A DNA stretch of 8,750 nt from positions 1 to 8,750 of the forward strand of contig JAIFNK010000146.1 in NCBI GenBank assembly GCA_020047775.1, written 5' to 3'. The first letter of the stretch is position 1; each line of letters opens with the position of its first letter. This DNA is from Akkermansia sp. (GTDB lineage: Bacteria; Verrucomicrobiota; Verrucomicrobiia; Verrucomicrobiales; Akkermansiaceae). Below are positions 7,009-8,750 of the stretch, piece by piece. The notes under the pieces were generated by a model that was not told the origin of the DNA, did not search any database, and saw only the letters and a program-made list of their open reading frames with translations. A program made the translations under genes and the position numbers.

Positions 7009-7722
7009 ATGAACGCCCTTACCCGTTGCCTCGAAACTTACTGGTCCTCCTCCATCGGGAAAAAGCTCGTCGTCGCCCTCACCGGCATCGTCCTTGTTCT
7101 CTTCCTCGCCGGCCACCTTGTCGGAAACCTGGTCGTCTTCATGGGCCCGGAACCCTTCAACCAATACGCGTATTTCCTCCACCACATGCTCCACGGCATG
7201 GGCATCTGGGCCTTCCGGATCGTCATGCTGGTGATGGTCACCGCCCACATCGTGGCCACCATCGCCCTCACCCGCCAGAACCGCGCCGCCCGCCAGGCCT
7301 ACGAATACAAGGCCACCATCCAGGCCTCCAAGTCCTCGCGCACCATGATCCTCTCCGGCCTCACCATCCTGGCCTTCGTGATCTACCACATGCTGCATTT
7401 CACCGCCCGCGTCGGCAATGAATACAACTCGCTGGCCCGCTACAAGACCACCATCCACGGCGTCGAGGGCGAAGTCCACAACGCCTGGCAAATGGTCATC
7501 GATGGCTTCAACTGGTGGCCCGCCTCCCTGTTCTACGTCATCGCCATGACCCTTCTCTGCTCGCACCTCATGCACGGCGTCGGCTCGATCTTCCAAACCA
7601 TCGGCCTCCGCACCAAGAAATCGGAAGGCCTGATCAAGCAGATTTCCATCGGCTACGCCCTTTTCATCTGGCTCGGCTTCATCTCCATCCCGCTCGCGAT
7701 TATCCTCGGCTTTGGCCGATGA
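7009..7722 (+). CDS. sdhC: Succinate dehydrogenase cytochrome b558 subunit
   Basis: 237 residues from ATG 7009. A longer frame to 6832 adds a proline-rich stretch with no family features. This is the membrane anchor and haem subunit of type B succinate:quinone oxidoreductase, which passes electrons from the flavoprotein to quinone in the inner membrane. The start SSSIGKKLVVALTGIVL and five predicted membrane helices (about 20-45, 68-88, 113-134, 172-192, 212-234) fit the b558 family. Candidate haem-ligand histidines lie in the helices at 36, 80, 127/130 and 186/189, consistent with two haems. Genes of this type normally sit directly before sdhA and sdhB with no separate SdhD. Here a four-helix-bundle gene intervenes before sdhA. 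There is no Shine-Dalgarno sequence. Confidence 0.93.
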   Translation: MNALTRCLETYWSSSIGKKLVVALTGIVLVLFLAGHLVGNLVVFMGPEPFNQYAYFLHHMLHGMGIWAFRIVMLVMVTAHIVATIALTRQNRAARQAYEYKATIQASKSSRTMILSGLTILAFVIYHMLHFTARVGNEYNSLARYKTTIHGVEGEVHNAWQMVIDGFNWWPASLFYVIAMTLLCSHLMHGVGSIFQTIGLRTKKSEGLIKQISIGYALFIWLGFISIPLAIILGFGR

Positions 7723-7757
7723 GAAATTGAGGAGTGAATATTGATTATTGAAAATTG
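7723..7757. repeat. Heptamer repeat block B, left side of the S23/IVP cassette
   Basis: Five consecutive 7-nt units (GAAATTG, AGGAGTG, AATATTG, ATTATTG, AAAATTG) begin immediately after the sdhC stop. The last three units plus one flanking base at each end (7736-7758) form the left arm of a 23-nt inverted repeat with 8131-8153, matching at 21 positions. Confidence 0.75.
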
Positions 7758-8153
7758 GCATCATGAATCCGGAAGAACTCAAAGCGCGCTGCAAGCAGTT
7801 CTCCCTGCGTGTCATCCGCTTGGTGCGCGCACTTCCGGATGATCGGGTCAGCCGCCCCATCGCCAATCAACTCATCCGCTCCGGCACCTCCGTCGCAGCA
7901 AATTACCGCGCCGCCTGTCTCGCCAAGTCCCCTGCCGATTTCACCTCCAAAATCGGCACCGCAGTCGAAGAAGCCGATGAATCCGCCCTCTGGATGGAAC
8001 TCATCATCGAGGACGGAATCCTGCCCGCCGAAAAAGTCACCTCACTCTGGCAGGAAGCCACGGAACTCACCGCCATCTTCTGCGCCTCCATCAAAACCAC
8101 CCGCCAAAACAACGCGCGTTAATTCGGTTTCCAATTTCCAATATTCAATATTC
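7736..8153 (+). mobile_element. Putative inverted-repeat-bounded S23/IVP cassette in the sdh operon
   Basis: The 418-bp unit is bounded by 23-nt inverted arms (7736-7758 and 8131-8153, 21 of 23 complementary). The arms end 4 nt before the ATG and begin 8 nt after the stop of the four-helix-bundle gene. Removing the unit would leave 13 nt after sdhC and 14 nt before sdhA, a normal spacing for co-translated sdh genes. The layout resembles 23S rRNA intervening sequences, which are stem-bounded and may carry an S23/IVP frame. No target duplication or transposase is seen, so mobility is inference. Confidence 0.45.
7763..8122 (+). CDS. Four-helix-bundle protein of the 23S rRNA intervening-sequence (S23/IVP) family
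   Basis: 119 residues from ATG 7763. A TTG at 7748 lies inside the repeat and is less likely. The family signature is clear: FSLRVIRLVRALPDD (about 13-27), then RPIANQLIRSGTSVAANYRAAC (residues 31-52), the core of the second helix, then ADFTSKIGTAVEEADESALWMELI (residues 58-81) and a final helix ending near residue 110. The protein should form a small four-helix bundle, often a pentamer in relatives such as the diversity-generating-retroelement accessory protein Avd, with a basic surface suited to nucleic acid. The function of free-standing copies is unknown. It lies between sdhC and sdhA on the same strand, so it would be on the sdh mRNA. It is GC-rich like its neighbours, so any insertion is not recent or came from a similar genome. 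Confidence 0.9.
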   Translation: MNPEELKARCKQFSLRVIRLVRALPDDRVSRPIANQLIRSGTSVAANYRAACLAKSPADFTSKIGTAVEEADESALWMELIIEDGILPAEKVTSLWQEATELTAIFCASIKTTRQNNAR

Positions 8154-8162
8154 AATATTCAA
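8128..8162. repeat. Heptamer repeat block C, right side of the S23/IVP cassette
   Basis: Five exact 7-nt units follow each other: two TTTCCAA then three TATTCAA. The block starts 5 nt after the IVP stop and ends 5 nt before the sdhA ATG. Its reverse complement (TTGAATA, TTGGAAA) matches block B, making the two blocks inverted partners. Confidence 0.85.
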
Positions 8163-8167
8163 TCGCC

Positions 8168-8750
<583 letters not shown>

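Follow-up and report, generated by a model that had tools for sequence, protein, structure and literature searches.

The intervening sequences (IVSs) of 23S rRNA genes and the heptamer arrays located between genes are among the described systems closest to the locus analysed here. In the accessible part of the Coxiella study (PMC4990558), the IVS has a 28-bp stem that was cleaved by RNase III in vitro, as well as tandem GACAGAT heptamers upstream of the S23 open reading frame (ORF); the Xanthomonas S23 structure is described there as a homopentamer. Intergenic heptamer arrays are represented by TAACTGA in Beggiatoaceae and by GGGAATC in Xanthomonas (PMC4679880, PMC4692102; available text). With respect to the transfer of such arrays, the available text of PMC4679880 states that 'no mechanism is evident', and a term search of the available text of both papers returned no mention of S23, 23S rRNA or four-helix. 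The protein family PF05635 was described as resembling Avd of diversity-generating retroelements (PMC10053308, accessible part). In the literature as searched, with most subscription papers outside its range, S23 and heptamers were brought together, among the papers listed, in the Coxiella IVS work alone, and none of those listed joined IVP genes to mirrored heptad arrays.

An S23/IVP gene between mirrored 7-nt arrays

The window, i.e., the whole stretch of 8,750 nt of Akkermansia sp. DNA that was analysed, carries an S23/IVP gene between sdhC and sdhA. The features of this region are as follows.

7009..7722, forward strand: sdhC, the upstream neighbour (PF01127 at 21.5 bits, under the cut-off of 25.8; tblastn to sdhC of relatives, 57-87%)
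7726..7758, forward strand: left arm of 7-nt units, recognised by eye, with the core at 7736-7758 (inverted repeat, 33 nt, 85% complementary)
7763..8122, forward strand: S23/IVP gene, 119 aa (PF05635 at 50.3 bits, cut-off 33.8; PDB 2rld, E 1.3e-18; dN/dS 0.11 compared with the copy of genome G011)
8131..8163, forward strand: right arm of the inverted repeat, a mirrored 7-nt array (period-7 detector, 8121-8173)
8168..8750, forward strand: sdhA, the downstream neighbour, truncated by the window end (PF00890 at 73.7 bits; 89-99% identity in 29 relatives)

The sequence-only reading had described arms of 23 nt at 7736-7758 and 8131-8153, and reading the sequence again gave the same picture. Complementary bases were found at 21 of the 23 positions, the arms were 4 nt away from the ATG at 7763 and 8 nt past the stop codon at 8120-8122, and 13 nt and 14 nt were left outside the arms to sdhC and sdhA, respectively. 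The inverted repeat extends beyond these 23 nt, to the 33 nt listed above (7726-7758 and 8131-8163). We also observed a feature absent from that reading: the arms are 7-nt tandem arrays oriented as mirror images around the gene. The right arm reads in sevens as CCAATTT CCAATAT TCAATAT TCAATAT TCAAT; the left arm mirrors it imperfectly. The period-7 detector flagged the right array and missed the shorter left one.

The arms enclose a single gene, that of PF05635, and no transposase gene is present inside. The structure matched by the IVP, PDB 2rld, consists of five chains of one sequence. The IVP gene is under purifying selection, with dN/dS values of 0.03-0.24 in 15 of the 17 pairs compared and dS saturated in the other two.

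MITEs and insertion sequences have terminal inverted repeats, ORF-less versions and empty sites. The unit resembles them in all three respects and differs from them in that it carries no transposase and in that what its ends have in common is a period and not a sequence. Since the transposase is absent, the unit is not a transposon of a known type. It differs from the Avd retroelements in that a scan of ten window ORFs revealed no reverse transcriptase, and the five reverse transcriptase matches of the source genome were all situated on other contigs. A reverse transcriptase was also rejected as a necessary partner of the IVP: the IVP was found and the reverse transcriptase was not in 18 of 59 genomes (for example, in G041, a single contig with 7 IVP genes, and in G056 with 9).

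With the Coxiella IVS (PMC4990558, accessible part) the unit shares an S23 ORF between complementary ends, tandem heptamers and sporadic presence in related bacteria. Unlike that IVS, which is located in 23S rRNA and excised by RNase III, the unit lies between protein genes, and both its arms are heptad arrays. Complementary ends of long-stem type and an S23/IVP ORF within the stem are thus present at a site outside rRNA genes, and because of this site we withheld the IVS label; the unit is IVS-like and not an IVS. It is best read as akin to the rRNA intervening sequences but resident in an operon. The arrays of Beggiatoaceae and Xanthomonas, as far as the available text describes them, have the same 7-nt tandem units between genes; unlike them, the unit has two mirrored arrays that bracket one gene.

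Two side observations concern the window itself. Among relatives sdhC varied strongly (57-87% amino acid identity) compared to the start of sdhA (89-99%), as if sdhC alleles had been exchanged. A solitary period-7 array at 1384-1430, for which an inverted partner was sought and not found, had no IVP gene and was positioned directly upstream of a minus-strand TatD-like gene.

Arm matching and the 7-nt period across genomes

An arm score was defined as the best local pairing of the 90-nt flanks of an IVP gene, with mispaired arms used as a control. The loci were mostly the best-scoring matches of each search and therefore a non-random sample. Loci with short flanks were dropped, one from the genus/order set (L086; 60 of 61 used) and two from the named-genome set (L179 and L193; 78 of 80 used).

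The window unit had an arm score of 25, compared to a maximum of 20, reached once, for 3000 random 363-nt pseudo-genes placed in 200 kb of own-genus background. Three IVP genes, including the window copy, were identified by Pfam in the source genome. The second (L001) was located between queC and a PTPS-family, queD-like gene, and the third (L002) between gyrB and gyrA, with the neighbours confirmed by Pfam in both cases. The other arm-gene-arm units that the sequence-only reading had envisaged in this genome were therefore found, at two sites. Both are flanked by heptads seen by eye to be mirrored (GAGTTGA-type for L001 and GGGTCAA-type for L002) and different in sequence from the window arms. 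The arm score was strong for L001 (27) and weak for L002 (10), whose reading frame continues into its right arm.

The same plan was observed for many IVP genes of relatives, of other phyla and of plasmids; what the sequence-only reading had described is genuine and extends further than stated there. For the genus/order loci the median score was 20 for matched arms and 8 for mispaired ones, and scores of at least 20 were reached in 33 of 60 loci compared to 1 of 3000 random placements. The 99th percentile of mispaired arms was exceeded by 29 of the 60 loci, and by only 2 of 60 in direct orientation. The arm's own partner scored best in 30 of 60 loci, and 11 of 60 scored below 14. The same threshold was passed by 11 of 29 loci in the phylum-wide set (3 in direct orientation) and by 26 of 78 in the named-genome set, where the 12 of 78 passes in direct orientation indicate that a part of the signal is repeat composition. 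The organisms of the 26 loci included Planctomycetota, Clostridia, Bacteroidota, Cyanobacteria, Proteobacteria, Chloroflexi and Acidobacteria, as well as to Kiritimatiellae, Kapaibacterium, Fibrobacteres and Gracilibacteria. Core operons were among the sites, namely gyrB-gyrA, metK-ahcY, ilvB-ilvN and sdhC-sdhA.

Within an element one arm matches the other, and from species to species at a given site both arms vary in step. For 17 elements between metK and ahcY, own arms scored 22 compared to 17 for the arms of orthologues; in a second set of 12 elements, grouped by an upstream motif (two of the 12 resemble the ahcY elements), the values were 29.5 and 17.5. Because relatives share heptads, own arms ranked as the single best match for no more than 4 elements of the 17 and 4 of the 12. 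In elements with AAGACNN heptads, the variable ends of the heptads in one arm agreed with those in the other arm of the element, with a mean cosine of 0.497 compared to 0.265 after permutation (1 of 5000 permutations was as high; 19 of 21 elements, those with such units on both sides, entered the test).

With a detector of arrays of at least 28 nt, period 7 was found in the IVP flanks of 33 of 61 genus/order, 19 of 29 phylum-wide and 48 of 80 named loci. Period 8 was seen in 6 of 61, 6 of 29 and 9 of 80 loci, any other period between 5 and 13 in 0-2, and periods 14-16 were echoes of 7 and 8. The sequence of the unit was nearly free: the 66 left arms compared had 59 distinct heptads. Its composition was skewed: left arms had 31% G and 13% C, and right arms 34% C and 12% G, with the polarity reversed in some elements (e.g., L058, L072 and L089).

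For the background, 20 genomes were sampled at 100 kb each. In the two samples from the own genus (200 kb), the detector reported zero period-7 arrays at both longer settings and one at the shortest. At the middle setting we counted 11 period-7 arrays in G168, 9 in G176, 4 in G165, 2 in G111, 1 in G217 and none in the other 15 genomes. In G165 two queries detected no IVP, and arrays can thus exist without the gene. A simple link between the number of IVP genes and that of free arrays was considered and dropped, given the 15 of 20 genomes without a period-7 array and the arrays of G165.

Several side observations were made in these samples. The 100 kb of G160 (L267-L271) had twelve period-8 and zero period-7 arrays at the middle setting. 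G168 has an ORF-less hairpin (L249, 10467-10675) whose arms are near-identical to those of an IVP element some 2.5 kb away; this element belongs to the window's own subfamily, and its IVP was missed by Pfam and recovered by a protein query. More ORF-less hairpins were seen in L252, near 11029-11127 and 12242-12389.

Plasmids carried IVP matches in 40 of 72,556 records, and phages in 0 of 50,697. Among three plasmid units inspected, the arms were visible by eye in Calothrix and Nostoc and were not clear in Anabaena sp. 90.

Occupied, empty and half-empty sites

An sdhC-sdhA match, in some cases to paralogues only, was present in 58 genomes, of which 30 were read. The IVP gene was located at this junction in three of them (the source genome, G011 and G002), while the other 27 had 12-57 nt instead; the empty site for which the sequence-only reading proposed to look in relatives does exist. 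A fourth copy at this junction, in G008, was frameshifted. The empty junctions showed a slight period-7 trace (0.383 compared to 0.330 for shuffled sequences, sd 0.017); therefore, some of them may be relics.

Intermediate states were observed between queC and queD, where 15 loci were read and the upstream gene was checked in four of them. The source genome has a full unit; in G009 the two arms are present without a gene, in G023 there is a single arm, and in G011 there are neither arms nor gene. Upstream of gyrA an IVP match was present in 4 of 30 loci, adjoining in the source genome and G018, adjoining but short in G006, and about 0.5 kb off in G040.

In IVP trees the copies clustered by site, which argues that most of them were inherited in place. 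A single origin of all metK-ahcY copies was not rejected (p 0.65). At cysD-cysN there were two deep IVP lineages (L052 and L053 versus L084), and a single clade was rejected (p 0.0005). Two other members of this group, L058 and L089, had joined it by loose clustering; by neighbours, the site rests on L052 and L053 versus L084. A single IVP clade was also rejected for the PSD1-DUF1501 pair (p 0.0003); these genes seem to belong to multi-copy families, which means that different loci may be involved. The tree used for the clade tests left out four rows (L002, L073, L083 and L050). The nesting of the queC-queD IVP within the livG-livF clade was considered as proof of a jump and discarded, since the nesting was not required by the test (p 0.58).

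A probable mobile cassette and the competing explanations

Since the unit recurs in many phyla and at further operon junctions, it is likely, in our moderately confident judgement, that the S23/IVP gene with its mirrored 7-nt arms is a mobile cassette colonising operon junctions. Such a cassette would insert as DNA next to a stop codon and would rely on the host operon for its expression. Its IVP oligomer might bind the arms through their 7-nt spacing and not through their sequence, and, when bound, could help the cassette to insert or to be copied. Copying templated by the hairpin would keep the two arms alike. In favour of the mobile cassette we counted the matched arms, the prevailing 7-nt period and its near absence from the own-genus background, the empty sdhC-sdhA junctions, the four states of queC-queD, the two IVP lineages at cysD-cysN and the purifying selection on the protein. 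We counted against it that an insertion was not observed between near-identical strains, that no recombinase is encoded within the unit, that most copies were inherited in place, that G165 has arrays and no detected IVP, that 11 of 60 arm scores were low, that direct-orientation passes reached 12 of 78 in the named set, and that the empty sdh junctions are possibly relics.

The sequence-only reading had favoured an IVS-like RNA element, whose arms pair in the sdh transcript and whose stem is cut by RNase III so that the sdhC and sdhA messages part. We consider this rather unlikely. For the sense transcript a closing stem of some 28 pairs was indeed predicted (z -3.5), with the 28-bp Coxiella stem and its in-vitro cleavage as a precedent (PMC4990558, accessible part), and by a rough method 79 of 170 loci had both neighbours on the same strand as the IVP gene and 3 had both on the opposite one, the remainder being mixed or unclear (the strand caller was correct for 45 of 61, 26 of 29 and 78 of 80 IVP genes). 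However, arms kept alike through RNA pairing should tolerate G-U mismatches more readily than A-C ones. This was not observed: the arms of 133 elements had 122 G-U and 186 A-C mismatches (295 and 376 in the mispaired control), with A-C in excess in 61 elements and G-U in 23. In addition, Nostoc edaphicum has an IVP unit in antisense within a ribonucleotide reductase gene pair, and sense insertion is thus no rule. A stem on the mRNA is predicted, selection at the RNA level is not supported, and we infer that the arms belong to the DNA level and that copying keeps them alike. The broader proposal of an IVS-like element in a protein-coding operon held for the arm-gene-arm unit, the further units and the empty sites. 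Its rRNA origin gained no such support: a 14-nt word that we take to be conserved in 23S rRNA was present in 0 of 200 IVP locus rows, many of them short-flanked.

Two side observations touch on these data. The A-C lean of the mismatches, which corresponds to G-T on the other strand, was seen in matched and mispaired arms alike. Adjoining ribonucleotide reductase genes, an IVP gene was found both on the Nostoc plasmid (L395, 1501-1869, antisense) and in the window's own genus (L056, sense; the upstream gene is the small subunit).

It is improbable that the IVP is a resident regulator, bound to the arms of the operon that encodes it and tuning the neighbours, with arms and gene kept through a gain to the host. 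The vertical clades per site, the low dN/dS in 15 of 17 pairs and the arms that match at a given site in different species would all agree with such a role, but the gene is absent from sdhC-sdhA in most relatives, and its loss is borne, judging by the frameshifted G008 copy and the arms-only site of G009. That slippage produced the arms as ordinary heptamer repeats, with IVP genes merely among them, is highly doubtful: heptamer arrays without IVP are described (PMC4679880, PMC4692102; available text) and were seen here too, one genome without a detected IVP included, but the own-genus background was empty of arrays at the two longer settings, and the arms are mirrored and matched, with direct orientation passing in just 2 of 60 loci.

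Extending the mobile cassette reading, we tentatively suggest that IVP cassettes could form a mobile class shared across phyla, with ends recognised by the mirrored 7-nt spacing of a nearly free sequence and with the IVP as the sole factor encoded by the element, acting through transposase-free chemistry. The IVSs of rRNA would then be a branch resident in rRNA, and orphan heptamer arrays would be footprints. It would be unusual for an element to mark itself by ends whose period is fixed but whose sequence is almost unconstrained. With S23/IVP genes occurring between mirrored heptad arrays in many phyla, the function of the IVP and the origin of heptamer arrays become linked questions and, since units reside within core operons, any effect on expression matters.

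One more placement was observed on the Anabaena sp. 90 plasmid pANA02, where an IVP gene (L394, 1501-1869) is located between cas6 and cas4 of a CRISPR operon.
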